Assembly (NCBI GenBank): GCA_002733765.1
Contig: NVWU01000011.1
Span: 1-64,000, forward strand
DNA: 64,000 nucleotides
Reading direction: 5' to 3'
Source: Colwellia sp.
GTDB lineage: Bacteria > Pseudomonadota > Gammaproteobacteria > Enterobacterales > Alteromonadaceae
Part shown: positions 25,419 through 44,696 of the stretch, piece by piece
How the letters are laid out: the number at the start of each line of letters is the position of its first letter
Numbering within the stretch: the first letter of the stretch is position 1
Translations under genes and position numbers: made by a program
Notes under the pieces: generated by a model
Databases searched by the model: none
What the model was told of the DNA's origin: nothing
Seen by the model: only the letters and a program-made list of their open reading frames with translations

Positions 25419-25594
25419 TGTCACCTCCGCTGTGTGTTTTTTTGCTCGTCACCTCTGTGGTTTGTTTATCTCCCCGTCACCTCCGTGGTCACTTAATCGG
25501 AGGTCTAGCGTTTACGGGCTGAGATTCCCGCTCAAAACACTACGGGAATGACGAGCTTTTACCGTCACCTCCGAAGTTTCTAAATCGGAGGTCT
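25419..25594. repeat. Two-arm palindromic repeat cluster, left flank of the GIY-YIG gene
   Basis: Contains stray CGTCACCTC arms at 25420 and 25447, a full CCT-type hairpin (CGTCACCTCCG...CGGAGGTCT, 25475-25506), a TTC-type hairpin (GAGATTCCCG...CGGGAATGACG, 25521-25553) and another CCT-type hairpin (25563-25594). The 25419-25553 part is closely similar, in direct orientation, to 26034-26165 on the other side of the nuclease gene. Confidence 0.85.
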
Positions 25595-25676
25595 CGTACT
25601 TACTGAGATATATCTGATTAAGTACACGATTAAATAATCCTGTGCTATCTTTTATATCTTTAGCCATAAGAAAATT

Positions 25677-25967
25677 ATGACCAAAGCTCCTTGTGTATAT
25701 ATTGTTACCAACAAGCCTTATGGTGTTCTATATATAGGTGTTACTAGTAACTTAATAAAACGTGTTTGGCAGCATAAAAATCATGTGGCCGATGGTTTTA
25801 GTAAAAAATACAATACCAATAAGTTGGTTTATATTGAACAATGCAGTGAAATAATTTCTGCTATTGCAAGGGAAAAACAACTTAAAAAATGGAACCGTTC
25901 ATGGAAAATAGAGCTTATTGAGAGATATAACCCTCAATGGCAAGATTTGTATTCCTCTCTTATTTGA
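25677..25967 (+). CDS. Small GIY-YIG nuclease
   Basis: 96 residues, essentially one GIY-YIG domain: VYIVTNKP then LYIGVTSNL (the GIY and YIG strands), the catalytic Arg in IKRVWQHK, the metal-binding Glu in AIAREKQLKKW, and a C-terminal IERYNPQW. All expected active-site residues appear intact. It belongs to the small standalone group often misnamed UvrC-like. It is the only plus-strand gene between 24.3 and 61 kb, and both sides carry ~130-bp direct copies of the palindromic repeat spread through this region. That suggests a link between nuclease and repeat, such as cleavage of the hairpins, but no activity has been shown. Confidence 0.9.
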   Translation: MTKAPCVYIVTNKPYGVLYIGVTSNLIKRVWQHKNHVADGFSKKYNTNKLVYIEQCSEIISAIAREKQLKKWNRSWKIELIERYNPQWQDLYSSLI

Positions 25968-26033
25968 ACTTGTTACTTTAATTATTCTCCGTCGCTTTCG
26001 AAGTAATATTCTCTGTTACCTCTTAGGATTTAC

Positions 26034-26192
26034 CGTCACCTCCGCTGCGTGTTTTTTTGCTCGTCACCTCCGAGGTTTCAGCTTGCCGTCACCTCCGTGG
26101 TCACTTAATCGGAGGCCTAGCGTTTACTGGCTGAGATTCCCGATTAAGCCACCTCGGGAATGACGGGAATGCTGTCGCTACGGGAATGCAGC
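26034..26192. repeat. Two-arm palindromic repeat cluster, right flank of the GIY-YIG gene
   Basis: Same order as the left flank: stray arms at 26034 and 26062, a CCT-type hairpin (26087-26118) and a TTC-type hairpin (26133-26165). A degenerate extra arm (CTACGGGAATGCAG) encodes the last codons and stop of the prepilin gene ending at 26178. Confidence 0.85.
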
Positions 26193-26948
26193 CCAACTAC
26201 GGTCAGTTTCGGTGTTGCACAGATCCTTATCACTATATGTTGAATCAATGGTGTGATCTGAGACTGAGGTATTGATACAGTAACCAGAAGTAGTTGTTAA
26301 ACCTTTTAAATGGTCAATTCGGTCTAAATCTACTTTATGAATTAAATTGCCTGTTGAAGGGTAATCAGTTTCATAGTCACCACTTCCTGCGCCTAAACCA
26401 CTGCTTTGAATTTGAATAGTATCATTAGTTGAATCTGAATCAGTATCTATAAGAGTATAAGTCCAACCATATTTACCATCTGTGCTCGCACTTTTATTAC
26501 CCCAAGCATCGCGAAAAACTAAATTACTGCCACTAGATTGGATATTAGTTAAATAAGGACCATGCCAACTTATCTCCCATATATTACCTGATGTAGCCTC
26601 ACAAGCGGTTTGATCTACTGCAGTTACACCAATATAAGAAGAAGCATCATGACATTGATAAACCAATTCAGATAATGTTTCAGGTAATCTATTCATATCA
26701 TTGTAATAGCCACTCAACACTGCCTGCGAACCAACACGCATCATAGGATCGCCAATAATGGCAAACTTAATTTCAGCTAAGCGTTGTTTGGTTGCTTCAA
26801 AGCGTTTTTGGTTGGAGTTATCGGTATAAACATCCATAGCCATGCTAGAGATTAAGCCCATTACGGCAACGACTACTACAAGTTCTAATAAGGTAAAACC
26901 CGCATTTTTTCTGTTACACTTTTGTAAGTTATTTTTCATGTTATTCAC
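26178..26948 (-). CDS. Prepilin/pseudopilin, GspG-like
   Basis: 256 residues. A 17-residue leader ends in KNAG, then F-TLLELVVVVAVMGLISSM: the prepilin peptidase site (G|F) with Glu at mature position 5 and the hydrophobic assembly helix. The soluble part has FRDAWGNKS, reminiscent of GspG (DPWGNPY), and several cysteines that could form disulfides. The last codons (AAFP-stop) lie in a repeat arm, so the C-terminus may have been altered by repeat insertion. It lies 6 bases after the preceding prepilin gene, in the operon with the ATPase at 27831. Confidence 0.88.
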   Translation of the reverse strand: MNNMKNNLQKCNRKNAGFTLLELVVVVAVMGLISSMAMDVYTDNSNQKRFEATKQRLAEIKFAIIGDPMMRVGSQAVLSGYYNDMNRLPETLSELVYQCHDASSYIGVTAVDQTACEATSGNIWEISWHGPYLTNIQSSGSNLVFRDAWGNKSASTDGKYGWTYTLIDTDSDSTNDTIQIQSSGLGAGSGDYETDYPSTGNLIHKVDLDRIDHLKGLTTTSGYCINTSVSDHTIDSTYSDKDLCNTETDRSWAAFP

Positions 26949-26954
26949 CTTGGC

Positions 26955-27794
26955 TTAGTTTACTTGTAGTACAAAAACAATATCATCTGATACATCAGCG
27001 CCATTATCATCAACACCATCTGAACCAAAACTGCGTAAGGCTACGCACCCATCTGCACCAGAACAAGGAGTATTATTTGCATCAGAATAATCAGCTTCAT
27101 ACAAATAAGGTGAAGCTGAATATTCAGCTACTTTAAACTTTGAGGGATCCTTTTTTTCACGGGTAAGTACGCAATATGTAGTACCCGGAGTTTTTTCTCT
27201 TAGTTGTTGAAAGCGATCGATTAAGCCATTCATTCGATTTCCAGCAACTGCTTGTACTGCAGCAGTATGTATATTATTACCATTGCCAGAACAGCCTAGA
27301 TCTGGGTTGAAAACATCAACCGCAATTGAGCGTATGGCAGGTAAATCAACATAAGGGCCATGCCAGCCAATGGCATATTCAGGTGTCCAATCAGGTATTG
27401 ATGCATCTGGTTTTTTAAATAAAAATGAGAAATTAGCTTTATCACTATCAGTATAATTTGGAGTAATGGAAGTTAATAAAGCCGATTCTTTCTTCGGCCA
27501 ATAACCCGTATCTACTTTAAACCTGCGAATCGCATTAGCAATGCGTTGCATTTCTACTCGGGTAATTGTTTCTTCAGACTCTTGTTGATAACCGTCCATG
27601 GCGACTGAGGTTAATCCTGCTAAAGTTGCCAAAATGCTAACTACCACCAGTAGCTCTATTAAAGTAAAGCCTTGTTGTTTGTGTGACTTTTTAGGAGCAG
27701 TATTATTTGGCGAATTATCGTTTGTTAGCAAAAAGGCTAAAGCCCGTCGGCTTCTTGCCATCACTTTTGTTTTTAATTTAATTTTAGTACTCAT
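26955..27794 (-). CDS. Prepilin/pseudopilin, GspG-like with possible Ca-binding loop
   Basis: 279 residues. The leader is unusually long, 42 residues to the G|F cleavage site (KQQG|FTLIELLVVVSILAT); an internal Met at residue 12 would give 31. Near the C-terminus, FGSDGVDDNGADVSDD resembles the calcium-binding loop of GspG major pseudopilins. Cys pairs are present. The order is ATPase, this gene, then the 26178 prepilin on the minus strand, closely spaced. Likely a structural or minor subunit of the pilus-like fibre. Confidence 0.88.
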   Translation of the reverse strand: MSTKIKLKTKVMARSRRALAFLLTNDNSPNNTAPKKSHKQQGFTLIELLVVVSILATLAGLTSVAMDGYQQESEETITRVEMQRIANAIRRFKVDTGYWPKKESALLTSITPNYTDSDKANFSFLFKKPDASIPDWTPEYAIGWHGPYVDLPAIRSIAVDVFNPDLGCSGNGNNIHTAAVQAVAGNRMNGLIDRFQQLREKTPGTTYCVLTREKKDPSKFKVAEYSASPYLYEADYSDANNTPCSGADGCVALRSFGSDGVDDNGADVSDDIVFVLQVN

Positions 27795-27830
27795 TATTTT
27801 TCCTTAACGGGTGCTTTATTCCAATTGATG

Positions 27831-29153
27831 TTAGTCACGAGCAGGGCCAAGCACACGAATTACTTCAGCTAAGTCGGTAATGCCTTTGTCAGCTTTATCG
27901 AGTGCCATATCGCGCAGAGTTTTATAACCTTGAGCTTGACAGTATTGGTCTATTTCAATATCAGTGGCACCGTCTATAATCATTTGTGCTAATTGTTTGG
28001 TCATGGGGACTACTTGAAAAATACCTTCTCGACCACGATAACCTGACGGGTTTTTACGGCTAGCACGAGCGCGATAGCGTTCTTCATTTACCTCAATATC
28101 TTGTGGCTCACTGTTATTGCTTTTAGCTTTTTTTAATCTATTTTGGTCTAATAGAACGCCTGCATCTTTAAGCTCTTTTTTGTTGGGTAAATAGCTTTCT
28201 TTGCTGTCGTGATCTAATTTACGCAAAAGTCGCTGCGCGATGATTAAATTTACTGTTGAGGCAATGTCGTAACCATCTACTCCTAAGTTACGCAATCTAG
28301 GAATAACCTTAGCGGCATCATTAGCGTGCAGGGTAGATAATACCAAATGGCCGGTATGGGCCGCTTTTACGGCGGTGTCTACGGTTTCTTTGTCGCGCAT
28401 TTCACCTAATACAATTACGTCTGGATCTTGGCGTAGCATGGTTTTGGCAATACTGGCAAAGGTTACCCCTTGTTTTTCATTGACGTTCACTTGGTTAATG
28501 CCATTCATGTGTATTTCTACCGGATCTTCCACGGTATAAATACTACGCTCTGGTATGTTGAGCATTTTCATTAGGGTATATAAGGTGACCGTTTTACCAC
28601 TACCGGTTGGCCCTGAAACTAAGGTTAGGCCGTTCATGGTTTCCATAGTTTGATGAATAGTTTCAACTTGTTCATAACTTAAACCCAAATTTTCTAGCTC
28701 AAGTAATTCTTCTGGTAAATACAGTAAGCGCAATACAATGGTTTCGCCATGTAAGGTGGGTGTTATGCTAGCGCGAAAGTCGACTGAAAAATCAGGGGTT
28801 AATGCCATTCTAAAACGGCCTACTTGGGTAGCTTTGTGCTCAGAAATATCTAATGCTGAAATAACTTTTAAACGAATACTAAGTAGTTGCCCAAAGTTTT
28901 TTGGTGGCGCACTGGCGTCTCGTAATATGCCGTCTACTCGATAGCGTATTCTAAATTCGCGTTCATATGGCTCTAAGTGAATATCAGAAGCGCCTGCTTT
29001 TACCGCATCAAGTAGGGTTTTATTTAAAAAACTACGGGCGTCCATGTCTTGAAAGTTAATGTCGGTTTGCTCTACTGCGGCGGAAATAGGGTCGCTTATT
29101 GAAAACTCTATATCATCGCGATTTATACTTAAATGGCTTAAATCGAATTGCAT
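27831..29153 (-). CDS. GspE/PilB-like secretion ATPase lacking the zinc-finger cysteines
   Basis: 440 residues, shorter than standard GspE (~500). It has Walker A (SGPTGSGKTVTLYTL), the Asp box and Walker B (RQDPDVIVLGEMRDKET) and the His box (AAHTGHLVLSTLHANDA). The N1E-type domain of GspE/PilB is absent. The C-terminal region between LLRKL and GYRGREGIF has no cysteines, so the tetracysteine zinc site is missing and replaced by a charged insert. It should power assembly of a fibre in the inner-membrane platform. It is the first of three genes with the two GspG-like prepilins. Confidence 0.9.
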   Translation of the reverse strand: MQFDLSHLSINRDDIEFSISDPISAAVEQTDINFQDMDARSFLNKTLLDAVKAGASDIHLEPYEREFRIRYRVDGILRDASAPPKNFGQLLSIRLKVISALDISEHKATQVGRFRMALTPDFSVDFRASITPTLHGETIVLRLLYLPEELLELENLGLSYEQVETIHQTMETMNGLTLVSGPTGSGKTVTLYTLMKMLNIPERSIYTVEDPVEIHMNGINQVNVNEKQGVTFASIAKTMLRQDPDVIVLGEMRDKETVDTAVKAAHTGHLVLSTLHANDAAKVIPRLRNLGVDGYDIASTVNLIIAQRLLRKLDHDSKESYLPNKKELKDAGVLLDQNRLKKAKSNNSEPQDIEVNEERYRARASRKNPSGYRGREGIFQVVPMTKQLAQMIIDGATDIEIDQYCQAQGYKTLRDMALDKADKGITDLAEVIRVLGPARD

Positions 29154-29262
29154 ACTCTTGTGTCCTTATGGGGATGTCAGCCCGTTTTTGTTTGTAATAA
29201 CAAATGACTACGCCCCACACGTCTGGTCACTGTTTAAATTTTATAATAGTGTTTGCTTCATT

Positions 29263-29388
29263 GAGATTCAGGAGAATATGCTCCTGCATTCTCTAATAAG
29301 TAGCATCCATGCCACGTCCGATTAACCCACCTCGGGAATGACGGTGTTATTCTTTTCGTCACCTCCGTGGTTTTTTAATCGGAGGTCT
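29263..29388. repeat. Two-arm palindromic repeat carrying the nested 50-bp module
   Basis: A TTC-type hairpin (GAGATTC...CCGATTAA...CGGGAATGACG) is split by the 50-bp module at 29269-29318 (AGGAGAATATGCTCCT and flanks). A CCT-type hairpin follows at 29357-29388, ending 8 bases from the stop of the GspF-like gene. Confidence 0.85.
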
Positions 29389-29395
29389 ATATTTA

Positions 29396-30628
29396 TTAGC
29401 CGCCAGCAGAAACCTGCATCATCGCTTTAAAGAAGGCGTAATAAACAAAGCCAACTAGGCCGCCAATAATCACGGTCATCGCTGGTTCTATCATGGCAAT
29501 CATCATTTTTAATCTGGCTTCGGTTTGCGATTGAAAGTAATTACCTAATTCGTCCATTACTTGGTCAAGCTCACCCGATCTTTCACCTATACCTGCCATG
29601 TGTTGTACCATGTGCGGAATAAGTGGCTGGTTTAAACCAGCGGCTAAGCTTTGCCCGGAAAGAATTTTCTCTCCTGCTTTGGTGAAGCAGTACGACATAG
29701 CCGTATTAGGCATAATGTAAGCGAGTACTTTTAAGGTTTCTAATACCGTTAAGCCAGAGCGTAATAACAGCGCCATTGTTAGCCCGGTCTGTGCCATGGC
29801 TGATGATTGAATAGAGCTACCGATTAATGGCATGCGAATAAGCATCTTATCAATAATGTTTTTGCCTTTTGCCGTGGTGTAGGAGGCTAAAATTAAAAAT
29901 AGGGTTATGCCTAATGTGGAAAAAATCATCGCGCCGTTATCTACCATATAAGCAGAGCCATCCATCATAGCTTGTGTTGATGCAGGTAGTTGGGATGATT
30001 TACCTTCAAGCATGGTGGCAAATTTTGGCACTACGCTCAGGGCTAAAAAGGTAATAACGCCAATAGCGGCGATAGTAACGAAAGTAGGGTAGAACATGGC
30101 GGTGACAAACTGGCGTTTAATGTCGGCACTGCGGTTAAGGTTTATGGCCAGCCGTTCTAGTATGACTTGTAACTCACCACTGGCTTCACCACTGGCAATT
30201 AATCGAGAGACAATTGGTGGAAACATGGTTGATTCTTTTTCAATGGCTTGCGCAAAACTAGACCCACCTTGAATAGACACCAACATGCGTATCAAGGCAT
30301 TTTTAAACCTTACCTTTAGCGTCATTTGTGAAATAGCTTCAATGGCTTGCATTAAGGTGTTACCCGCTCGCAGCATTAAGGCGACTTGTCTGAAAAACAA
30401 AACAAGATCGGCAGTATTCGCTTTTTTATAGCGATTAATCGAAAGGTAACTTAATACGATTTTAAACAGTGCCATTAATGACTGTTTTTCACCGCCAGTT
30501 TTTAATTTTAATACATAGAGTGCTTTGGATCTGAGAGTGCTTCTTGCCTCACTTTCACTACCTGCTTCTATGGTGCCTGTGGTTTCATTGCCCAACTGAT
30601 CTAGGGCTTTGTAGGTAAACTTAGCCAT
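29396..30628 (-). CDS. GspF/PilC-like inner-membrane platform protein
   Basis: 410 residues, the usual size. Two GspF domains (about 70-195 and 275-400) are seen, each with the hydrophobic segment and conserved LRAGNTLMQAIE / LLRSGLTVLETLK motifs; three membrane helices lie near 175-195, 225-245 and 375-400. It starts with the family's FTYKALDQLGNETTGTIEA. It should form the rotor/platform on which the GspE/PilB-type ATPases act. Repeats lie on both sides. Confidence 0.92.
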   Translation of the reverse strand: MAKFTYKALDQLGNETTGTIEAGSESEARSTLRSKALYVLKLKTGGEKQSLMALFKIVLSYLSINRYKKANTADLVLFFRQVALMLRAGNTLMQAIEAISQMTLKVRFKNALIRMLVSIQGGSSFAQAIEKESTMFPPIVSRLIASGEASGELQVILERLAINLNRSADIKRQFVTAMFYPTFVTIAAIGVITFLALSVVPKFATMLEGKSSQLPASTQAMMDGSAYMVDNGAMIFSTLGITLFLILASYTTAKGKNIIDKMLIRMPLIGSSIQSSAMAQTGLTMALLLRSGLTVLETLKVLAYIMPNTAMSYCFTKAGEKILSGQSLAAGLNQPLIPHMVQHMAGIGERSGELDQVMDELGNYFQSQTEARLKMMIAMIEPAMTVIIGGLVGFVYYAFFKAMMQVSAGG

Positions 30629-30788
30629 TATAGCTCCATTTGTTAATACTAACTTTGTTTGAGTTATTTACGTAATTAAACAAAATTAACGTCAATACCT
30701 TTTGGTATTATTTACCTCGCTATAGTCGAGGCGCTTTACGTTGTCACCCCCTCGGTGACCACACGCCATGTTTTTCTATTATTTTTCT

Positions 30789-30914
30789 CGTCACCTCCGT
30801 GGTCACTTAATCGGAGGTCTCAGCTTTATTGCACGAGATTCAGGAGAATATGCTCCTGCATTCTCTAATAAGTAGCATCCATGCCACGTCCGATTTAGAT
30901 ACTACGGGAATGAC
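30789..30914. repeat. Two-arm palindromic repeat with nested 50-bp module
   Basis: A CCT-type hairpin at 30789-30820 (CGTCACCTCCG...CGGAGGTCT), then GAGATT followed by the 50-bp module (30841-30890) and the rest of a TTC-type hairpin ending CGGGAATGAC at 30914. It occupies much of the 480-bp gap between the GspF-like and GspE-like genes. Confidence 0.85.
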
Positions 30915-30954
30915 TAATCCTTTGACTTCGGAAATGACGGGTTAACTTTTCTAT

Positions 30955-31105
30955 CGTCACCTCCGTGGTGTTCCCGTCCGTCACCTCCGTGGTTACTAAA
31001 TCGGAGGTCTAGTAATTACAGGCTGAGATTCAGGAGAATATGCTCCTGCATTCTCTAATAAGTAGCATCCATGCCACGTCCGATTAAAACACCTCGGGAA
31101 TGACG
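30955..31105. repeat. Two-arm palindromic repeat with nested 50-bp module, next to the gspE stop
   Basis: A lone CGTCACCTCCGTGGTG arm at 30955, a CCT-type hairpin at 30979-31010 and a TTC-type hairpin with the nested module (31031-31080), ending at 31105, 5 bases from the last base of the GspE-like CDS at 31111. Confidence 0.85.
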
Positions 31106-31110
31106 TATTA

Positions 31111-32712
31111 CTAGCCTTGGTATAAATGCATTACTTCGTCTATTGACGTTAAGCCCTCATAAACTTTGTTTTTTGCGTCTTGCCATAAACGATAATAGCT
31201 ACCGCTTTTTTTACTGGAGGCAACTAATTCAGCCTCACTGGCGCCTTCAGCTATTAATCTTTCTAAATCGTCATTTAACCATAAGGTTTCATATAAACCG
31301 ACACGACCACGGTAACCACTGCCTAAGCATTGCGCACAGCCGTTCGGTTTCTGTAATGTTAATTGTGTTTCTTCATTGTTTAAGGTTTTTTGTTCTTGCT
31401 CGCTTGCTTGGTAAGCTGTTTTGCAATGTGGGCATAAACGTCTGACTAAGCGCTGTGCTACCACACCGATTAAGGTTGATGAAACCAAATAGCGAGGGCA
31501 ACCAATATCAACTAAGCGGTTAATTGCGCCTGCGGCATCATTGGTATGTAAAGTAGATAACACCAAATGACCGGTCATTGCCGCTTTTAGTGCCGTGTCT
31601 GCGGTTTCTTTATCACGTATTTCGCCTACTAGCATGACGTCAGGATCATGACGTAGAAATGAGCGTAGCGCTTTGGCAAAAGACACCTTTTCGCTTACTT
31701 GTACTTGGCTAATATTGTCAATTACTTGCTCAATAGGGTCTTCAACGGTAAGTATGTTTAAATTGTCTGAGTCTAGCTCACGTAAAGCGGCATATAAGGT
31801 GGTTGATTTACCTGATCCCGTCGGGCCGGTGACTAAAATAATACCGTAAGGCTTACTTATCGCCGCTTGAAAACTACTGAGTATGGTTTTAGGCATGCCC
31901 AATTGTGCTAATGATAAATCAGCCGTGTCTTGGCCTAAAATACGAATAGTAATACGCTCACCCCAACGGGTAGGTATGGTTGCTACACGCATATCTACGT
32001 CGTCTAAGTCCCAGTCACTGACTCGATAAGAAAAACCACCATCTTGTGCCATATTGGCTTCAGCAATATCAAGTGAGGCTAATACTTTAATACGTGATAC
32101 TAAGGGATCACGTAGGCCAAGTGACACTGGGCGTTCGTATTCACTCATTTTGCCATCAACCCGCAATCGTATTTTCATCCCCATTTCTTCGGGTTCAAAG
32201 TGCATGTCGGTTACATGGCGCAAATAACATTCTTTCATCAGCTTATTGAAAAAACCGATGGCATCAACATTGGCATTATTGGTGTGGCTAAAAGCACGCT
32301 CAATAATACCGTCAACTAACCCCGTATCACTGACCACCAAATCACTGACTTGGTTTAATATGCGTTTACTTAATTCTTGTGGTGATCTGTCATCAGGGTT
32401 GGTTAATACCATCACCAAGTTACCTTGATAATAAGCGGGTATAAAGTGCTTACGCTCTAAGGTGTTTTGTGGGAATTTTTTAACTAAACTAAGGTCAATA
32501 TCTAAATCTTTACGTTCAACAAAGGGCAGTTTTTTAATAATAGCGAGCGCACGATACAGCGCCATGGTAGGAAAACGTCCTGCCTGAGTAATATAATCAA
32601 GTGCAGGTTTACGGGCTCGTTTAGCCTGTATTTGAAGATCAGCCAACTGGCGTTGATCAATCAACCCTGACTGTATACCTGCTTGAATTAATACTGCCTC
32701 GGCTGCCGCCAT
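31111..32712 (-). CDS. GspE/PilB-family secretion ATPase with zinc motif
   Basis: 533 residues, the full domain set. An N-terminal GspE_N-type domain (about 1-130), then the N2/RecA core with Walker A (VTGPTGSGKSTTLYAALREL), Walker B (RHDPDVMLVGEIRDKETADT), His box (AMTGHLVLSTLHTNDA) and a complete tetracysteine zinc site (CPHC...CAQC). This should be the principal assembly ATPase of the pilus/secretion-like system. A second, smaller GspE-like ATPase lies at 27831-29153. Repeats lie on both sides. Confidence 0.92.
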   Translation of the reverse strand: MAAAEAVLIQAGIQSGLIDQRQLADLQIQAKRARKPALDYITQAGRFPTMALYRALAIIKKLPFVERKDLDIDLSLVKKFPQNTLERKHFIPAYYQGNLVMVLTNPDDRSPQELSKRILNQVSDLVVSDTGLVDGIIERAFSHTNNANVDAIGFFNKLMKECYLRHVTDMHFEPEEMGMKIRLRVDGKMSEYERPVSLGLRDPLVSRIKVLASLDIAEANMAQDGGFSYRVSDWDLDDVDMRVATIPTRWGERITIRILGQDTADLSLAQLGMPKTILSSFQAAISKPYGIILVTGPTGSGKSTTLYAALRELDSDNLNILTVEDPIEQVIDNISQVQVSEKVSFAKALRSFLRHDPDVMLVGEIRDKETADTALKAAMTGHLVLSTLHTNDAAGAINRLVDIGCPRYLVSSTLIGVVAQRLVRRLCPHCKTAYQASEQEQKTLNNEETQLTLQKPNGCAQCLGSGYRGRVGLYETLWLNDDLERLIAEGASEAELVASSKKSGSYYRLWQDAKNKVYEGLTSIDEVMHLYQG

Positions 32713-32740
32713 TATTGCCTCTGTTTTATGTTTATACTGC

Positions 32741-32804
32741 TGTCACCGCGGAAATGACGGTGTTCTTCTTATCGTCACCTCCGTGATGGTTTAATCGGAG
32801 GTCT
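32741..32804. repeat. Palindromic repeat, CCT-type hairpin plus stray arm
   Basis: A degenerate GTCACCGCGGAAATGACGG at 32742-32760 followed by a CCT-type hairpin (CGTCACCTCCG...CGGAGGTCT) at 32773-32804, 12 bases from the stop of the small 56-residue gene. Confidence 0.8.
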
Positions 32805-32816
32805 GTTGTTGTTAAT

Positions 32817-32987
32817 TTAATTATTTTTATCCGTACTCAGTGTATTTAACTCTTTTAATGATGCAGACAACTCATTTAGTGTTGTTGGTGACTTATCTTT
32901 TTGCTTGTTGTATTTATCGGTATTGCTAATAACATTATTCAATAAGTCTCTAAGTTCTAGTAATTCTTTGGTTTTATTTTTATTCAT
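32817..32987 (-). CDS. Small hydrophilic protein in the pilus cluster
   Basis: A 56-residue reading frame from the ATG at 32987, starting MNKNKTKELLELRDLLNNVI and ending STDKNN. It is rich in Lys, Asn, Glu and Leu with a heptad-like leucine spacing, so probably helical. It begins 13 bases after the PilT-like gene and is co-directional, which supports translation in the same transcript. I do not recognise the family. Confidence 0.55.
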   Translation of the reverse strand: MNKNKTKELLELRDLLNNVISNTDKYNKQKDKSPTTLNELSASLKELNTLSTDKNN

Positions 32988-33000
32988 AGTTAAGCGCCCG

Positions 33001-34095
33001 CTATAAATTTAATAAGCGAGTAAAAGTCTCGTTGTCTTTGCATATTGCTTTGGCATCGTGCTCATTTACTTTTTTATTTTTGACTAACTTAACCAAGGCT
33101 TGATCGAGTGTTTGCATACCTTGGCGTGAGCCACTTTCCATTACCGAATAAATCTGTTTAGTTTTAGACGATTCAATTAAATTAGCAACAGCGGCATTAA
33201 CAATTAATGTTTCTATGGCGACTGCTCGGCCTTTACCATTGACTGTTGGTAATAATTGCTGCGCTATCACCCCTTTTAATGCGTATGCAATACGCTGGCG
33301 GGCAACTATTTGCTCATCACCGGGAAAACTCCCTACTAAGCGTTCTATTACGCCAACGGCATTATTGGTATGTACAGTACTAAACACTAAATGGCCGGTT
33401 TCTGCTGCGGTTAATACCGCGCGAATGGTGTCTAAATCACGCATTTCGCCTACCATTATTACATCGGGGTCTTCACGTAATGACGCTTTTACGGCATTAG
33501 CAAAACTGGGTACGTCGGTGTATAGTTCTCGTTGATGAAAAATAGATTTAGCGTTTTTATGCACTACTTCTATAGGGTCTTCTATGGTGAGTACGTGTTT
33601 TTCTTGTGTTTGGTTAATGCTATTTAAAATGGCCGTTAAGGTGGTTGATTTTCCGCTACCTGTTGCGCCAGAAATTAACACTAAGCCAGATTTTAAATTG
33701 GCAAAATAATCTATTTGTGGTGGTAGACCTAATTCACGCATGGTGCGAAATGAACCGTCTAAATAACGTATGGCCAGTGCATAATGACCTTTTTCAAGGT
33801 AAATATTAATGCGATAGCGATAACCACCGTCAGTGCTAAAACCTAAATCTAAATTAGAGTCTTGTGCAAACATCGCTAATTGCTGTTGGTTCATTAATGA
33901 TTGCGCTAAGCTTTCCATCAACTCAGGGCAGAAAATAAATTCTTCTTCCTCATTAATATTCATCGCTGCGTTATAGCGTTTTAATTTGCCGTTGATACGA
34001 AAAATAGCAGGTAAATCGACACTTAAATGTAAATCTGATGCATTTAGCTCAACGCATAAGTCCATTAGTTCAATAAGTTGTAATGCTGCAGCCAT
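33001..34095 (-). CDS. PilT-family pilus retraction ATPase
   Basis: 364 residues with the PilT core: Walker A (ISGATGSGKSTTLTAIL), Asp box and Walker B (REDPDVIMVGEMRDLDT), His box (AAETGHLVFSTVHTNNA), and the PilT/PilU-type ERLVGSFPGDEQ with a helical C-terminus. The N-terminal domain ASDLHLSVDLPAIFRINGKL matches PilT. Retraction ATPases are a hallmark of type IVa pili rather than type II secretion, so its presence argues that this cluster builds a dynamic pilus. No AIRNLIRE-like motif was located, so retraction function is not certain. Confidence 0.9.
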   Translation of the reverse strand: MAAALQLIELMDLCVELNASDLHLSVDLPAIFRINGKLKRYNAAMNINEEEEFIFCPELMESLAQSLMNQQQLAMFAQDSNLDLGFSTDGGYRYRINIYLEKGHYALAIRYLDGSFRTMRELGLPPQIDYFANLKSGLVLISGATGSGKSTTLTAILNSINQTQEKHVLTIEDPIEVVHKNAKSIFHQRELYTDVPSFANAVKASLREDPDVIMVGEMRDLDTIRAVLTAAETGHLVFSTVHTNNAVGVIERLVGSFPGDEQIVARQRIAYALKGVIAQQLLPTVNGKGRAVAIETLIVNAAVANLIESSKTKQIYSVMESGSRQGMQTLDQALVKLVKNKKVNEHDAKAICKDNETFTRLLNL

Positions 34096-34124
34096 TGTTT
34101 TTAAATATACCTTGTTATTATTTT

Positions 34125-34156
34125 CGTTACCTCCGTGGTGTCTTAATCGGAGGTCT
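34125..34156. repeat. Single CCT-type palindromic repeat hairpin
   Basis: CGTTACCTCCG...CGGAGGTCT, one arm of the family, between the PilO-like gene (stop 18 bases away) and the PilT-like gene. Confidence 0.8.
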
Positions 34157-34173
34157 ATGTCAGTTACCGTTAT

Positions 34174-34797
34174 CTACACCAAAATTTTCATGGTAATAAT
34201 CAACTTATTTTGCTCACCACGGACTATCGTTATCTTTTGTACGATGGCTATATTATCTAGTTGACTTAACTCCTGAATAAAAGCTAATAAGGGATAAAAT
34301 CGGCTTTCTGCTTCAATAGAAAAGTAGGGGCGCTTATAGTATTGGTTACGGTTGTCGTTATATTCAGCTAACTCTTCTTCATGGGCTTTTAGTTTTGCCC
34401 CGAGTACTTCAAAATTCTTAATTTTTACATTAACATCGTCAGCTAATTCAGAAATATCTAACTTAAGTGTTTGTAAACGGTCGGCATTATTAAAAGGAAT
34501 AAATTTGCTGGTCAATTTGCTAATAGCCTCGGTTGAGCTAGCAAGTTCAGTTTGTAATTTGACCAAATTCTTATCTGAAATGGCACTGTTAAATGTAGGC
34601 TCTTCTATTTTACCTATGCGGGTTTCAATACGGTTAGCTTTACGGTTGGCCATTTTTTCTGCCTTAAACATGTCATGCCATAACAAGGCAGCAAAAAAGC
34701 CATAAGCTGAAATAATAATACAAGCAATCAGAATAATGAGCTGTTTTCTATCTTTGGCGGGTAAACGTTTAAACTTTTGTTGTAATGATGAAAACAT
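34174..34797 (-). CDS. PilO/GspM-like pilus alignment protein
   Basis: 207 residues: a short cytoplasmic start, one membrane helix (about 20-40), a periplasmic coiled coil (about 45-140) and a small C-terminal domain. Low primary similarity, but this topology and its place after the PilM-PilN-like gene match PilO. Its start overlaps that gene's stop (TAATG). It should pair with the PilN-like part to align the platform with the secretin. Confidence 0.75.
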   Translation of the reverse strand: MFSSLQQKFKRLPAKDRKQLIILIACIIISAYGFFAALLWHDMFKAEKMANRKANRIETRIGKIEEPTFNSAISDKNLVKLQTELASSTEAISKLTSKFIPFNNADRLQTLKLDISELADDVNVKIKNFEVLGAKLKAHEEELAEYNDNRNQYYKRPYFSIEAESRFYPLLAFIQELSQLDNIAIVQKITIVRGEQNKLIITMKILV

Positions 34798-36671
34798 TAT
34801 TGACCTTGCTCCTTGTTATTGGAATTTTTAGCCGAGCTGTTACTCACTTGGTTTTTTTCTTCGACAAAATAGCGACGACCCACTTCTATGTGCATTTTAT
34901 AATCAATAAATACGCCGTCTGCGGTTTCTTCCTTGGCTGCACTTGAATGAGTGTCGCCCACTTGAAAATTCCACGGCTTTAAATTTTCATTAAGCTGACG
35001 AGCAAATTGACTGGCATTACGCGTTTTTAATGCTCTGCCATCAATGATTATGCCATCTAATTGCATTGTTACCTGTTCAATTAATACACCTTGATTAATT
35101 GCGTTGGCGATAGCCGACAGGGCGCCGGGTACGTTAGTTGCGCCAGGTAATAATTGGCTTGATATATAATTATTGAGTTTTTTATTAAGGGCTATCTCTG
35201 TTTTAATGTGTTCAATATTAGTAGCGAGTTTTTTGTATTCGGCTGCTACCTTACCGTATTGTTGTTTTACTTTGCTTTCAGTTTCCCAGCGAGTTTTTAG
35301 CTCAACTAAACGTTGCTCTTGAGTGGCTAGATTCATTTGCATCCAAATAATGAAACCCACCGCTACTACTAGCACTATACTGGCAGCCATTGCCATTAAC
35401 GCTTTAGGTTGCAACATTTTTTGCCATAAAGGGGGTTCTTTATCTTTGGCTGCAACTGAGCATGCACGGCCTTGTTCGCTAAATTTTAAATAGTGGTTAG
35501 CAATACCAATAAAAGGTAACAAACGGTTGCTAGAGAAACCTTCAGGCAAACTAAAGTTTGGCTGGGCTTGTACTAGCGCACGAACTTCAATATTAAGGTG
35601 TTCTGCCAAGGCAAAGCTAAGTTCGTCTAAAGTATCGTCGGGGCTATATAAATATAAGTTGTCACTGATGTTGGCAATATTGTCGGGGCATATCGCTAAT
35701 ACTTCGTCTAGAGTTAAATTGCCATCGTGACGGGCTTTGGTTTTTACTATTTTTAAGTTTCTGGGGCTGCCAGAAAGAAAAACCAAATGGGAAGGGTGAA
35801 CTTCAATTAAACATTGGTTTTCTTCATCGGTACGTAGGCCAAGGGCGGCGTAACTAGCACCATTATCAGGATAAAAGCGTGCTAATTTTAAACCATTTAA
35901 CTCAAAGGCACCGTACCAACGATTACGAATAGCCCTACCAAGTCCAGCAATTAACCATTGATGTTCACTTTGGTTATCATTATTTGTGCTGAGTACATCG
36001 TCACTTAAACCAGAAAATTGACTATCAAGAGGATTTTCAGTGAGTTCGGCTTGATAACCAAAAGTGGTATCTTGATCTAGTTCTATTAATTTATTTTGTA
36101 GCGTAAAACATTCTTGTAATTGAGCGGTTGTTAAGTATTCTAATTCTACTGCTAAATCACCAAAACGGGTCATGGCTGCTTCACCGTCTTGGTTTTGGCG
36201 TAGCTCTAGCTCTGTTACTATTTCTTCCCGCTGGCTTGAGGTTAAATAACCCCGTTCAACCAACATAGAGCCAATTAACCATTGTTTATTATCGTCTGCG
36301 GTTGCGCCTTCTATTTCCCAGCGAATAAGCTCTTGCATATCACTGTTAGCCTTGGGCTTTAATGGGCTAACCGGTAAAGAAAGTGTACTGATTAGTAATG
36401 ACGGGCTAATGAGTATGCAACGTCTGGGTATACTGCTGTGCTGTTTTATTAATGTTTGGTGAATTTCAGCAATGGCGCGGGTAAAGTCAACCTGTCTTGA
36501 TTCAGCTATGGCCTTGATACTGGCATAGTCTTTATCGGCTTTAAATAACGCTGCTCTTAAGCCAAAACTGCCTGACTGAAACACTAATAAACCGCTAGAG
36601 CTAAGCTCAGGCAATTTAAAATGTGATAATTTTTCTTTTAAAGAGGCTAGGCTAGTAGCACTATTGCTCAT
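34797..36671 (-). CDS. PilM-PilN-like fusion with an inserted MshEN-like segment
   Basis: 624 residues. The N-terminal ~420 look like a degenerate PilM/GspL actin-like domain (SSSGLLVFQSGSFGLRAALF; RWEIEGATADDNKQW). Within it, about residues 130-195, are two tandem ~24-residue motifs (IGSMLVERGYLTSSQREEIV and FGDLAVELEYLTTAQLQECF) resembling the c-di-GMP-binding MshEN repeats of MshE ATPases. A membrane helix (about 425-445) and coiled coil then lead to a PilN-like periplasmic domain. It most resembles an MshI-type fusion. The upstream gene overlaps it by 11 bases. The c-di-GMP idea is inference from motif shape. Confidence 0.75.
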   Translation of the reverse strand: MSNSATSLASLKEKLSHFKLPELSSSGLLVFQSGSFGLRAALFKADKDYASIKAIAESRQVDFTRAIAEIHQTLIKQHSSIPRRCILISPSLLISTLSLPVSPLKPKANSDMQELIRWEIEGATADDNKQWLIGSMLVERGYLTSSQREEIVTELELRQNQDGEAAMTRFGDLAVELEYLTTAQLQECFTLQNKLIELDQDTTFGYQAELTENPLDSQFSGLSDDVLSTNNDNQSEHQWLIAGLGRAIRNRWYGAFELNGLKLARFYPDNGASYAALGLRTDEENQCLIEVHPSHLVFLSGSPRNLKIVKTKARHDGNLTLDEVLAICPDNIANISDNLYLYSPDDTLDELSFALAEHLNIEVRALVQAQPNFSLPEGFSSNRLLPFIGIANHYLKFSEQGRACSVAAKDKEPPLWQKMLQPKALMAMAASIVLVVAVGFIIWMQMNLATQEQRLVELKTRWETESKVKQQYGKVAAEYKKLATNIEHIKTEIALNKKLNNYISSQLLPGATNVPGALSAIANAINQGVLIEQVTMQLDGIIIDGRALKTRNASQFARQLNENLKPWNFQVGDTHSSAAKEETADGVFIDYKMHIEVGRRYFVEEKNQVSNSSAKNSNNKEQGQ

Positions 36672-37272
36672 GACTATTCACTTGCCTTGGTGGCGTTTTT
36701 TTCATGTGAGGTTTTTTTGAAGCGGTAAGTGCAACAGCGATTGTTTCGTTGGCGGGCTTAACGCCGACTAGTAGTAATCTTGGCCCTTTGGCGTAGTTAT
36801 ATAAGCGATAGGCTTGAAATTCTAATACCGTTTCTGGCTGATAATAGCTAGAGATATGGCTGGCGATAACGTTCTCTACATAAACGGCAATTACTTGGCT
36901 TTGTGGTGTGCGAATATAGGTGCTAAAAGCCACTTCAGGCAAAGGTGATATACCCCAAACGGATAAAGCATCGGTTACTAAGCTTGCTTTACTAGGAGTA
37001 ATCGGGGCTTGTAAAATGCCATGAAAATGAATTAATTCAGGCTCAAGCATTATCCGTTGTTTTTTGTCGGAAATATTTTGTGAGACTTGATTACTGGCAA
37101 TGTATCGGTCTAAATCAACGCTTTTACTGCCTTGTTGCCAGCTTAAGTCTACCTTGCTCACCAATATGTCATTTTGTTGGTCACTACTAGTACTAAAAGT
37201 TTGCCAAACAAAAGCGGAGGCAGAAAAAATAAGTAATAAGGCAAGCAGGGCGGTAAGGATTTTTTTATACAT
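36661..37272 (-). CDS. Hypothetical membrane-anchored protein of the pilus cluster
   Basis: 203 residues with an N-terminal membrane anchor (about 5-25, ILTALLALLLIFSASAFVW) and a periplasmic remainder. It overlaps the PilM-PilN-like gene by 11 bases and opens that operon, so it should be a component of the same machine. I do not recognise the family; its size and position resemble PilP- or GspC-like accessory subunits, but there is no firm motif. Confidence 0.7.
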   Translation of the reverse strand: MYKKILTALLALLLIFSASAFVWQTFSTSSDQQNDILVSKVDLSWQQGSKSVDLDRYIASNQVSQNISDKKQRIMLEPELIHFHGILQAPITPSKASLVTDALSVWGISPLPEVAFSTYIRTPQSQVIAVYVENVIASHISSYYQPETVLEFQAYRLYNYAKGPRLLLVGVKPANETIAVALTASKKPHMKKTPPRQVNSHEQ

Positions 37273-37392
37273 GATACTTCTAATTGTTGGTGTTGTTGTG
37301 TCGTTAATAATGGTTAAATATTCGTTTTACGTGTTTATAATTTGCCATTCTCAGGTGTTTAGCCCCCTGTCTTTTAGATATATCTAGCCCCT

Positions 37393-37549
37393 GTCATTCC
37401 CGAAGTGTTTAGCCTCTGTCATTCCCGAGGTATTTTAATCGGGAATCTCAGTTTGTATCTACTAGACCTCCGATTTAGACACTACGGAGGTGACGGTACT
37501 TTATATCACCACAGAGGTGACGGTACTTTATACCACCACAGAGGTGACG
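37393..37549. repeat. Palindromic repeat cluster, reverse orientation, with solitary arms
   Basis: A lone GTCATTCCCG arm (37393), a full two-arm unit in reverse orientation (TTC-type 37418-37449, CCT-type 37464-37495) and two lone CACCACAGAGGTGACG arms (37507 and 37532). It lies in the 660-bp gap between the operon starting at 37272 and the prepilin gene at 37934. Confidence 0.8.
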
Positions 37550-37572
37550 ATATTATTGTCCTGTCCCAACCC

Positions 37573-37655
37573 CGTCATTCCCGAGGTGTATTAATCGGAC
37601 GTGGCATGGATGCTACTTATTAGAGAATGCAGGAGCATATTCTCCTGAATCTCGG
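37573..37655. repeat. TTC-type palindromic repeat with nested 50-bp module, reverse orientation
   Basis: CGTCATTCCCGAGG...TTAATCG, then the 50-bp module in reverse orientation (37598-37647), closing with AATCTCGG. It interrupts the hairpin at the same point as the three copies at 29, 30.8 and 31 kb. Confidence 0.85.
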
Positions 37656-37739
37656 TTTACCCTTTCTTATAACACCTCTTTATAACGCTAAAGCAACACT
37701 GCGGTACTGCTTTGCGAAATAAAAAAGTATTATAAGAAA

Positions 37740-37757
37740 GGTCGGCGAATGCCGACC
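37740..37757 (-). terminator. Rho-independent terminator of the 37934 prepilin gene
   Basis: A perfect 7-bp GC-rich stem GGTCGGC/GCCGACC with a 4-base loop, followed on the minus strand by TTTCTTATAA. It lies 177 bp downstream of the prepilin stop. Confidence 0.75.
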
Positions 37758-37933
37758 GTTCTTACTTGCTTGATGTACTCCGTTACATCGTCCTTGAAAA
37801 CCCATTATTCCCTGTAGGGCAGCAACATCATAATTATCGGAGACGATAAACTTACAATGTATCATCCGTTAAATTTACTTCGCTATTTTAAGCTAGGCTA
37901 AGTTAAGTTAAACAAAGCCTAAGTTAGGAAAGC

Positions 37934-39007
37934 TTAGATAGTGTTACGAGTACCATCCCATTCGCCTAACTCTTCTTCTTTAGTATCACCAGCGCCATCT
38001 ACAATAGCGGTTAATGTTACTTGGTCTGAAGCTTCCCAAGTAGTAGCTGTTAGTACAGTACCAATGTTAAATAAAGCAACAAAACGGTTATATTGAGTTT
38101 CAGATACATGACGATATACAGGTACAGTAGTCATACCACCTAAATCATTAGCGTTAAATAATGAAGATGATGGGCCTAAACCAACAGCCATTAATAGTGG
38201 TGCAGTTGGAACTGCTGCTGTTAGAGCTGTGCCATCTGATGTTATGTCTGTACCATCAAATTGTGCACCGTCTTGGCCTAGTACACGCTCGTAACCACCA
38301 GTCCAGATTGCAACTTTTGGTAATGTAGTGAATTGGAAACCAGTAGCAACAGCATCTTGGTCTTCAATAGCGAAACCATAACCACAACCATTTGCAGCAG
38401 GGTTTAAGAATACGTTACCAGCAACCACGGCATTACCACGGCTTGCAACAATAGCTTGTGGGCCTGCACCAGCATCAGCAGCAGCAACACCCGCTATACC
38501 AGCACAAGTATTTGAAGTATCAGTACCATCAGCATCTAAGTGAGTACCAACATAACGTAGTGAGTCAATACCACCACCATTTAAGCCTTCCGCAGCACTT
38601 TCTATTAAATCGACTAAAACGATATCTTCAATCGCCGCAGTTGTAAGAATAGCTGCAGTCGTTGTTCCATCACCAGCAGAAGTCTGGATTAGTGAATCAA
38701 AGTTAGTAGGTAACGCATTTTTGTTCAATACACGGAAAGTACGAATACCTTTGTTTAATTCATCCATCATGGCTACGTGAGCGGCAGCAGAAGCACGGGC
38801 ATCAGTATCTTGTAGGGCGATTGACGCAGTACCAGCGATTGCGGCTAAAATTGCAACAACAACTAATAGCTCTAGTAAAGTGAAACCCGCTTGTTTTGCT
38901 GCTTTAAGTTTTAAAAACTTAGACTTAAGCTCAGTATCTGCAATGTCGCTAGCTTGAACTTGGCTGAATTTTTGAGTTAGGCTTTTAGCCCATTTGTTGT
39001 TAAACAT
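37934..39007 (-). CDS. Large prepilin with long leader, probable major pilin-like subunit
   Basis: 357 residues. The leader is 41 residues to the G|F site (KQAG|FTLLELLVVVAILAA), far longer than the usual 5-8; the ATG at 39007 is well supported by an AAGGAT ribosome site and no later ATG precedes the cleavage site. The mature protein is rich in Ala, Thr, Gly and Asp and large for a pilin, with two cysteines in the central part. It is transcribed alone, with its own structured leader and terminator, as expected for an abundant subunit. Confidence 0.87.
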   Translation of the reverse strand: MFNNKWAKSLTQKFSQVQASDIADTELKSKFLKLKAAKQAGFTLLELLVVVAILAAIAGTASIALQDTDARASAAAHVAMMDELNKGIRTFRVLNKNALPTNFDSLIQTSAGDGTTTAAILTTAAIEDIVLVDLIESAAEGLNGGGIDSLRYVGTHLDADGTDTSNTCAGIAGVAAADAGAGPQAIVASRGNAVVAGNVFLNPAANGCGYGFAIEDQDAVATGFQFTTLPKVAIWTGGYERVLGQDGAQFDGTDITSDGTALTAAVPTAPLLMAVGLGPSSSLFNANDLGGMTTVPVYRHVSETQYNRFVALFNIGTVLTATTWEASDQVTLTAIVDGAGDTKEEELGEWDGTRNTI

Positions 39008-39089
39008 GTTGTTTATCCTTTTTTTTGCTATTTAACAGGCGGTCATTAGCGTGGTTAGTTTTTGCTAATGGTAAGTGGGCCTAGTTAAA

Positions 39090-39265
39090 TAAAACAATGA
39101 TTGTTAAGAAGACTGTAGTTATACCCTTTCTATATGTGAATAGGGTATGGCTCAAGCGGCGACCTCTCCCAAAGAGGCAGGCGACCCGAACAGTCATTGT
39201 TTTTGTTAGCGCGTCCTTTGATCAGGCATGTCGCCTGCATCATTTCAGTGCTATTCCTTTTGCAC
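39090..39265 (-). ncRNA. Structured 5' leader of the large prepilin gene, class unknown
   Basis: On the minus strand this region has several stems: GTGC/GCAC, a 9-bp GCAGGCGAC/GTCGCCTGC, CCTC/GAGG, a 7-bp ATACCCT/AGGGTAT, and a long-range perfect 10-bp pair AAAACAATGA/TCATTGTTTT enclosing the last two. GC content is higher than the surroundings. I compared it by eye with the c-di-GMP-I, c-di-GMP-II and cobalamin riboswitch consensus and did not find a match. It may be a new cis-regulatory RNA or a small RNA. Confidence 0.4.
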
Positions 39266-39330
39266 CTATGTACTGTTTTGAAATATTCCCTTTAAAAAAC
39301 CTTTGGAACGATTTCAAAAAATTCTTTTTT

Positions 39331-39404
39331 TGTTACCTCCGTGATTACTTGATCGGAGGTCTGTATTCTTTAGATTCCCGATTAAAACACCACGGGAATG
39401 ACGG
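39331..39404. repeat. Two-arm palindromic repeat
   Basis: CCT-type arm (GTTACCTCCG...CGGAGGTCT) followed by TTC-type arm (AGATTCCCG...CGGGAATGACGG). It lies 75 bases past the stop of the 91-residue gene at 39479. Confidence 0.85.
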
Positions 39405-39478
39405 AGTGAATGACGTACTCTTTAGCCACTTCGAGTATGACGTTGTATTTATCGTGACTTCTATTTTTTAACTTTCCG

Positions 39479-39754
39479 TTAAGACAAAATATCTCGTTTC
39501 AATAATGCTTTTAATGGATGTTCTGCTTTTAAGGCTTCATCGCAGTCAACCACATAACGGTGTTGTTTACCGCAGTGAATAATGATTTCTTTTTGTCCGC
39601 GGCGTAATATTTTCATTTCAACGCGAAAATCACCATAACCGTCATGATTAAATAACTCGGTATATAAATTAGCGATATGCTCAAATATATCAGCATGTGT
39701 TTCGGTTAACTTATTGGCTTTTTTCTCTAAAGATTGTAATGCTGTTTGCGTCAT
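39479..39754 (-). CDS. Hypothetical 91-residue cytoplasmic protein, possibly iron-regulated
   Basis: No signal peptide or membrane segment. A predicted N-terminal helix (ALQSLEKKANKLTETHADIF) precedes a strand-rich part (GDFRVEMKILRRGQKEIIIH, CGKQHRYVVDCD). I do not recognise the family. Two Fur-like sites lie 70-140 bp upstream, so it may be iron-repressed. Repeats lie on both sides of it, and it sits between the large prepilin and the transglutaminase operon. Confidence 0.7.
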   Translation of the reverse strand: MTQTALQSLEKKANKLTETHADIFEHIANLYTELFNHDGYGDFRVEMKILRRGQKEIIIHCGKQHRYVVDCDEALKAEHPLKALLKRDILS

Positions 39755-39822
39755 AATAATTTCAATTTTCTTCTGATTGTTACCAGATTTATTATTTGAA
39801 ATAATTATTGGAGTAATTACGT

Positions 39823-39893
39823 CAAATGAGAATGATTCGTATTATGAATTAAATTTAAATTATGTCAAGTGCAAATAAGAATCTTTTTCATTT
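39823..39893. promoter_or_regulatory. Two Fur-like boxes upstream of the 91-residue gene
   Basis: CAAATGAGAATGATTCG (39823-39839) and CAAATAAGAATCTTTTTCAT (39872-39891, extending to 39893) both resemble Fur sites with a few mismatches. Tandem Fur boxes are common. They lie between the 91-residue gene and the repeat at 39956. Confidence 0.5.
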
Positions 39894-39955
39894 AGATTTG
39901 AGTTGATTGATTTAGATTGGTTTTTTTTAGTGGTTTTAGTTTTTATTCTACATCT

Positions 39956-40020
39956 GTCATTCCCGTGGTTGCTTTTCCTGCAATCACTGGGCCTCCGATT
40001 AAGACACCACGGAGGTGACG
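39956..40020. repeat. Two-arm palindromic repeat, reverse orientation, degenerate TTC arm
   Basis: GTCATTCCCGTGG opens a TTC-type arm whose second half has decayed; a CCT-type arm in reverse (GGGCCTCCGATTAA...CGGAGGTGACG) ends at 40020, 35 bases from the transglutaminase gene stop. Confidence 0.75.
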
Positions 40021-40055
40021 GTATGGGTGTTCTTAGGCGGTGATGATATTTTTGA

Positions 40056-43239: not shown

Positions 43240-43243
43240 TTGA

Positions 43244-44188: not shown

Positions 44189-44232
44189 GATTGTTCCTTG
44201 TTACTTGATTGTATTTAAAATGTTTATTTCTT

Positions 44233-44683
44233 CGTCACCTCCGTGGTGTATTAATCGGAGGTCTCAGCTTTATTGCACGAGATTCCCGATTAAGTGATTA
44301 CGGGAATGACGGTTTGATTTTCTATCACCACCTCCGTGGTGTATTAATCGGAGGTCTCAGCTTTATTGCGCGAGATTCCCGATTAAGTAACTACGGGAAT
44401 GACGGTTTGATTTTCCATCGTCACCTCCGTGGTGTATTAATCGGAGGTCTCAGCTTTATTGCGCGAGATTCCCGATTAAGTAACTACGGGAATGACGGTT
44501 TGATTTTCCATCACCACCTCCGTGGTGTATTAATCGGAGGTCTCAGCTTTATTGCGCGAGATTCCCGATTAAGTAACTACGAGAATGACGGTTTGATTTT
44601 CCATCGTCACCTCCGTGGTGTATTAATCGGAGGTCTCAGCTTTATTGTACGAGAGTCCCGATTAAGTGACTACGGGAATGACG
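44233..44683. repeat. Tandem array of five 93-bp two-arm palindromic repeats
   Basis: Five head-to-tail units begin at 44233, 44326, 44419, 44512 and 44605 (period exactly 93 bp). Each has a CCT-type hairpin, a ~15-bp spacer, a TTC-type hairpin and, except the last, a TGACGGTTTGATTTTC linker. Units 1, 3 and 5 begin CGTCACC, units 2 and 4 CACCACC, suggesting growth by dimer duplication. Since 93 is a multiple of 3 an open frame runs through it; this is not a gene. The array lies 14 bp from the lipoprotein gene stop. Confidence 0.95.
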
Positions 44684-44696
44684 TTGCTGAGTTATA

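Follow-up and report, generated by a model that had tools for sequence, protein, structure and literature searches.

A small gene for a GIY-YIG nuclease lies between two closely similar blocks of palindromic DNA in the window (the whole stretch of 64,000 nucleotides of Colwellia sp. analysed here), which raises the question of whether the gene and the repeats belong together. An earlier note, made from the letters alone, had proposed that they form an undescribed nuclease/repeat system. Our main reading, to which we give a probability of roughly 0.7, is that the nuclease would be a dedicated partner of the surrounding CGTC palindromes, which it would recognise, cut and spread as pairs by repair copying. 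The gene and the repeats beside it are arranged as follows.

25419 to 25457, forward strand: two stray CCT arms, starting at 25419 and 25447 (arm search).
25475 to 25553: head-to-head pair with outer CGTC tags, made of a CCT-type hairpin at 25475-25504 (forward strand) and a TTC-type hairpin at 25524-25553 (reverse strand); DNA fold z -2.5.
25563 to 25592, forward strand: lone CCT-type tagged hairpin, 84 bp upstream of the start codon; DNA fold z -4.1.
25677 to 25967, forward strand: open reading frame of the 96-aa GIY-YIG nuclease (ORF listing of the window).
26034 to 26072, forward strand: two stray CCT arms, starting at 26034 and 26062, copying the upstream ones directly (arm search).
26087 to 26165: head-to-head pair 3' of the gene, with a CCT arm from 26087 (forward strand) and a TTC hairpin at 26136-26165 (reverse strand); DNA fold z -3.1.

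The direct copies of about 130 bp that had been described around the gene were recovered, since 25419-25553 and 26034-26165 were identical in 116 of 135 alignment columns with 3 gap columns, and a BLAST search of the window with one block returned the other at E 5e-42. Each block of about 135 bp consists of two stray arms followed by a head-to-head hairpin pair, in the order CGTCA-CCTCCG arm, spacer and inverted CGTCA-TTCCCG hairpin. Because the TTC-type hairpin is inverted relative to the CCT arm, CGTC tags stand at both outer ends of the pair. The arms have stems of about 7-8 bp, loops of about 10-12 nt and TCT tails; the CCT arm begins with AC, and both arm types carry C at stem base 6. Four stretches folded as DNA were all more stable than their shuffles (z -2.5, -3.1 and -3.3 for pairs, -4.1 for the single hairpin). 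The CCT arm at 26087 has the exact core, yet it is absent from the strict hairpin list, and the best DNA fold of 26087-26165 pairs both arms with each other instead of forming two separate hairpins.

The 96-aa protein matched PF01541 (Pfam, E 2.7e-15) as its single Pfam domain, no additional domain being found, and its AlphaFold model had a mean pLDDT of 94.6, corresponding to a confident fold. Residues Y8, Y19, R29, H33, E66 and N85, which we take to be the catalytic positions of a GIY-YIG nuclease, were all present, in line with the intact active site claimed earlier, and were unchanged across 29 relatives; the protein also carries K71 and N73. A PDB sequence search (E<=0.01) matched two UPF0213 proteins only (1zg2 and 1ywl). 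Foldseek placed UPF0213, Slx1 and UvrC N-terminal domains on top (probability 0.96-1.00), with 1zg2 as the best match and none under E 0.001, and NCBIfam assigned the protein to no family. YhbQ/UPF0213 proteins resemble it in size and domain; a YhbQ-like gene (L001) is present separately in the genome, in a 3.2-kb locus without repeats. A phage origin of the nuclease was discarded, with no match at E<=1e-10 among 50,697 phage records, as was a known defence gene, for which PADLOC gave weak matches only (E 0.002 and 0.009).

Loci of relatives were picked by protein similarity alone, and 178 non-redundant loci, the window included, were pooled from three locus sets. In 159 of these 178 loci at least one side of the nuclease had a [C/T]GTC-tagged hairpin within 250 bp, and in 126 both sides did. 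In contrast, YhbQ-type genes rarely had such a hairpin within 250 bp (2 of 30 on one side, 0 of 30 on both), which rules out that any GIY-YIG gene would do. In the first set of 57 loci, CGTC was the commonest hairpin tag of the 256 tetranucleotides (270 hairpins in 50 loci), and 21.8% of all CGTC occurrences started a hairpin, versus 1.8% for the median tetranucleotide; the 30 YhbQ-type GIY-YIG loci of the same family held 4 hairpins in 4 loci, i.e. 0.041 versus 1.49 per kb. Hairpins were concentrated next to the gene, with 4.5 per kb within 250 bp and 0.08-0.31 per kb beyond 1 kb in 32 longer loci of one family. A scan of reference genomes by protein alone returned at least 588 loci, of which the best 80 formed the second set; 76 of these had a tagged hairpin no more than 250 bp away, and CGTC was again the top tag. 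Two of the 80 repeat first-set loci, and the 78 new ones include 74 with a hairpin, 54 of them on both sides. The third set gave 31 of 40.

Around the gene, the flanking hairpins stood head to head in 78 of the 126 two-sided loci, in the reverse arrangement in 20 and in the same direction in 28, so that their orientation is not fixed. The window nuclease was 48-68% identical to repeat-flanked relatives in the alignment. Record titles in the second set included Proteobacteria, Planctomycetes, Anaerolineae, Nitrospirae, Campylobacteraceae and Parcubacteria, and many of the records were metagenome bins; the finding is more general than the earlier note supposed. Named nuclease loci include those of Neisseria gonorrhoeae, Novosphingobium aromaticivorans pNL2 and Azospirillum lipoferum; the N. 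gonorrhoeae relative, 50% identical to the window nuclease, was flanked on both sides by CGTCATTCCCGC-type CGTC hairpins. These three names or genera are also among the CGTC carriers of a 2013 survey (PMC3733652). Whether relatives are always flanked by the repeat had been put forward as a check of the link: most are, and a minority of 19 of the 178 loci, of the kind that would speak against it, had no tagged hairpin within 250 bp, 3 of them being truncated on one side by a contig end closer than 250 bp to the match.

The repeats might also be ordinary bidirectional terminators or mRNA-stabilising hairpins, among which a small orphan gene is tolerated. Their location between the larger ORFs of the stretch and the folding of the four stretches beyond their shuffles are in keeping with such a role, which would leave unexplained the specificity of the tag, the 2 in 30 obtained with YhbQ genes of similar size and the covariation described below; we consider it very improbable.

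If the nuclease reads the hairpins, stems should follow the protein. Upstream and downstream stems, compared in 47 loci, were alike at 6.40 of 8 positions within a locus versus 4.63 between loci, and identical in 20 of the 47. In 56 loci of the second set (best 80 of at least 588) the values were 6.73 and 5.63, and in each of the two sets 0 of 10000 permutations reached the likeness seen within loci. Nuclease similarity tracked stem similarity (Mantel r 0.395, n 128, 0 of 2000). When 96 protein columns were set against 7 stem positions over 126 loci, the pair of residue 73 and stem base 6 stood out (Z 17.4), followed by residue 71 and the same base (Z 9.6). N73 was paired with C at base 6 in 60 of 63 cases; with K, Q, H or R at position 73, base 6 was G in 36 of 53 and C in 5. 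The held-out test comprised 31 loci with hairpins, 26 of them covered by the residue-73 rule: N73 went with C in 6 of 6 and K, Q, H or R with a base other than C in 14 of 20 (Fisher p 0.004), the rule failing in 6 of the 26. Shared ancestry was addressed with a 157-tip tree built without columns 71 and 73 and including the discovery loci. It yielded 33 independent pairs differing in base 6 (C or not), of which 20 were concordant (N73 in the member with C and not in its partner), none was the reverse and 13 were ties; the sign test gave p 1.9e-6, and column 73 ranked first of 96. The comparative evidence gives good support to recognition of its palindromes by the nuclease, and the window nuclease is the presumed reader of its own repeat, via N73 and K71. 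The pair of positions offers a one-residue, one-base handle for the study of hairpin recognition.

Co-occurrence was analysed in a sample of 397 genomes, read as Pseudomonadota, in which the nuclease, called at E<=1e-12, was found in 109. At least 5 copies of the repeat were present in 52 of the 109 nuclease-positive genomes versus 19 of the 288 negative ones (OR 12.9, p 2e-19), and at least one copy in 71 of 109 versus 57 of 288. The searched pattern covers some stem types only, and 57 of the 109 nuclease-bearing genomes had fewer than 5 copies of these types; the pattern therefore misses other stem types there. A profile search for missed nucleases, which covered the 19 repeat-rich negatives, left 15 without a match at E<=1e-6 and 4 with distant or partial ones. 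Repeats can therefore outlive or lack the gene. The expectation that repeat number follows the nuclease was borne out by the association and departed from in those 15 of the 397 genomes, which are repeat-rich and have no nuclease by profile. One repeat-rich "negative" genome (L127, G221:C34:33893-34024) carries a short stop-containing nuclease fragment, possibly a lost gene. Within the host's family the distribution of the nuclease is patchy (28 of 147 genomes), and some genomes hold several copies of the gene. Linkage, similar flanking stems, covariation and co-occurrence together give strong support to a functional link between nuclease and repeat, the part of the earlier reading that stands.

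Within the window, the repeat was confined to the 19 kb by the gene, as the earlier note had reported: all 16 strict CGTC hairpins lie within 25475-44634, and all BLAST matches of the flanking block at E<=1e-4 lie inside 25419-44683. Beyond the blocks already listed, the repeats are the following.

29217 to 29398, unstranded: repeat block between larger ORFs (D3, D6, D7).
30760 to 31108, unstranded: two repeat blocks between larger ORFs (D3, D5, D7).
32735 to 32814, unstranded: repeat between larger ORFs (strict hairpin scan).
34096 to 34166, forward strand: CCT-type repeat between larger ORFs.
37392 to 37654, unstranded: repeat block in inverse orientation.
39311 to 39415, unstranded: head-to-head pair with hairpins at 39331-39403 (strict hairpin scan).
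39955 to 40046, reverse strand: CCT-type repeat.
44204 to 44784, unstranded: five tandem copies of one head-to-head pair, 93 bp apart, one pair being 44233-44311 (D1).

The tandem copies leave one frame open as a 183-aa ORF, which is probably spurious. With up to 2 mismatches, CGTCACCTCCG had 29 matches in the window versus 3.4 expected and CGGGAATGACG had 29 versus 5.6. Exact CGTCACCTCCG, the core of the CCT arm, occurred 15 times in the 4.05-Mb genome, always within 25475-44615, versus 0 for the reversed control; these counts rule out a chance origin of the repeats. Exact CGGGAATGACG, the TTC core, occurred 18 times, 10 in the window stretch and 8 outside, and the TTC-type arm is therefore not exclusive to the stretch. 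By our hairpin scan, 6 of the 8 outside places hold tagged hairpins, one of them (L237) as a head-to-head pair whose second arm differs. At this place (G000:C19:91245-91555) the TTC arm is joined by a CTC arm that resembles the nuclease-side repeat of a genome of the same genus (G135).

Given this confinement, the 19-kb stretch might be a gene island acquired from a donor rich in repeats, with the nuclease and the repeats as mere donor DNA. The repeats sit between the larger ORFs of the stretch and every exact CCT core is inside it; searches with a GspE-like ATPase encoded there (27831-29153) found nothing at E<=1e-140 in 146 other genomes of the host's family, nor at E<=1e-130 in 368 other genomes of the class, where a few candidates per genome were scored. 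Such hitchhiking would account for the local confinement but neither for the covariation nor for the hairpins beside 159 of the 178 nuclease loci, and tagged hairpins, one of them a head-to-head pair, are present elsewhere in the genome; it is a tentative explanation that we hold to be rather doubtful. An orthologous island was sought in relatives and none was found. From our reading of the ORFs, 26178-47919 is a type II secretion-like gene cluster.

Clustering was measured in eight hand-picked genomes with long contigs. Hairpins with the cognate stem had a density of 0.333 per kb at 1-10 kb from the gene, 0.066 at 10-30 kb and 0.005 far off, with zero at 1-10 kb in 4 of the 8 genomes. The 19-kb cluster of the window fits this near-gene tendency; acquisition of a whole island is also possible.

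Empty sites, which had been suggested as something to look for, were found in Sphingobium plasmids, where the unit lies between fnrL and a response regulator in 7 records and the same neighbours occur without it in 4. Four of the 7 occupied records and all 4 empty ones were aligned. Two empty sites had a single doubly tagged palindrome at the place of the unit, and the other two were without such a palindrome; the former (Sphingobium TomTYG74 and TomTYG64; L137, L138), with CGTC at both ends, may be either the target or the scar of a deletion. In one occupied record the nuclease gene was frameshifted. These plasmids represent presence and absence of a unit bounded by palindromes, and either state may have come first. 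Over 100 kb of two Sphingobium plasmids (about 97% identical), no tagged pair was gained or lost at five alignment breaks; one insertion among these breaks carried a single weak hairpin with an unrelated stem.

An IS200-type or RAYT transposase encoded elsewhere might instead mobilise the repeats, the nuclease being unrelated to them. The absence of a RAYT noted earlier holds for the window, where no Y1_Tnp match was found; the genome has 8 Pfam Y1_Tnp matches (L247-L254, one at G000:C15:141687), several with stops. None of the six Y1 loci scanned (L247-L252) had a CGTC hairpin in about 1.5 kb, and a Y1 transposase as partner of the repeats is not supported. Nor did the 2013 survey find any tyrosine transposase gene flanked by CGTC repeats (PMC3733652). 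We find this alternative scarcely credible.

The repeats themselves belong with the CGTC-tagged REPs of Di Nocera, De Gregorio and Rocco. According to that survey, these are short palindromes next to a CGTC or TGTC tag, mostly intergenic and found in head-to-head dimers that often combine two arm types, with a stem of 8-9 bp starting with AT, a loop of 4-5 nt and a CCA tail; they seem to be without a dedicated transposase and are perhaps going extinct (PMC3733652). The window repeats share the CGTC tag (16 strict hairpins) and the head-to-head dimers, yet their loops are longer (10-12 versus 4-5 nt), their tails are TCT and not CCA, and their CCT arm begins with AC and not AT; we therefore regard them as a variant of CGTC-tagged REPs. 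Many repeats of the relatives are closer to the published form, such as CGTCATTCCCGCGAAAGCGGGAATCCAG. The survey reports no dedicated enzyme, whereas here a GIY-YIG nuclease accompanies the repeats. A literature search returned no paper that we recognised as joining GIY-YIG nucleases to CGTC repeats.

In REP/RAYT systems (REPtrons, GTAG REPs), too, a small nuclease gene is flanked by tagged palindromes, frequently as inverted pairs, with copies scattered in its neighbourhood, and the analogy drawn earlier, in which the nuclease takes the position of a RAYT, is apt. They differ in the tag (CGTC in the window, not GTAG) and in the enzyme, a GIY-YIG nuclease and not a Y1 (HUH) tyrosine transposase. 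GIY-YIG nucleases are not known to have strand-transfer activity. GIY-YIG homing endonucleases share the catalytic domain, weak PHROG homing-endonuclease matches were obtained, and their spread by break and copy is a possible parallel. The window gene differs in being stand-alone, of 96 aa and between larger ORFs, with a dispersed palindrome as target. Homing-endonuclease genes lie in an intron, an intein or a phage gene and encode a separate DNA-binding domain; for the window gene neither such a domain nor a phage match was found.

Ssn is reportedly a family of GIY-YIG single-strand nucleases, described by Chenal et al. in Nature Communications in 2025. These are said to be small proteins with many homologues, each with a matching sequence, of which Neisseria would hold hundreds of repeats, to cut single-stranded DNA only, at specific sites, and to modulate transformation in that genus. 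The window protein is alike in being a single-domain GIY-YIG nuclease that has a cognate repeat, and the gonococcal relative between CGTC hairpins is a further likeness. With CGTC-tagged REPs published and the Ssn family reportedly described, the "undescribed" status given to the system is doubtful.

The pair could then serve the host, the nuclease cutting single-stranded DNA at repeats (for example in DNA incoming by transformation) and the repeats being uptake or recombination marks and not selfish. Covariation and linkage suit any reader-and-target pair, and the position of the N. gonorrhoeae gene between two such hairpins and the role in Neisseria transformation reported for Ssn point the same way. 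The patchy distribution, the multiple gene copies and the clustering near the gene in some genomes, and the frameshifted plasmid copy look more like a mobile element, though a host role does not preclude a selfish origin; on balance we think a host-serving pair unlikely.

In the dedicated-partner reading, the basic unit would be a head-to-head pair of tagged hairpins, many of them bare and some with a nuclease gene placed between the arms or among them. The enzyme would recognise the tagged hairpin, residue 73 reading stem base 6 as the covariation suggests, and would nick or cut single-stranded or extruded hairpins close to their tag. When the break is repaired, the pair may be copied into sites close by; bare pairs would be passengers of this local, homing-like spread. 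Binding, cleavage, its strand form and copying by the nuclease are what we infer from comparing sequences, and spreading of the repeats by break and copy is our best guess.

More broadly, these nucleases may be the missing mobilisers of CGTC REPs across phyla, a proposal that we rate at a little under even odds. Elements with the gene inside a pair would be autonomous, spread would take place mainly near the gene and targeting would go through residue 73 and base 6; if target choice is largely one residue reading one base, elements could therefore switch targets by single substitutions. The pairing would assign a role to small GIY-YIG genes now annotated without one. CGTC-tagged REPs are widespread, and a covarying companion nuclease makes the question of their enzyme testable in vitro. 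If the proposal is true, REP-like populations can exist alongside two nuclease folds that are unrelated to each other.
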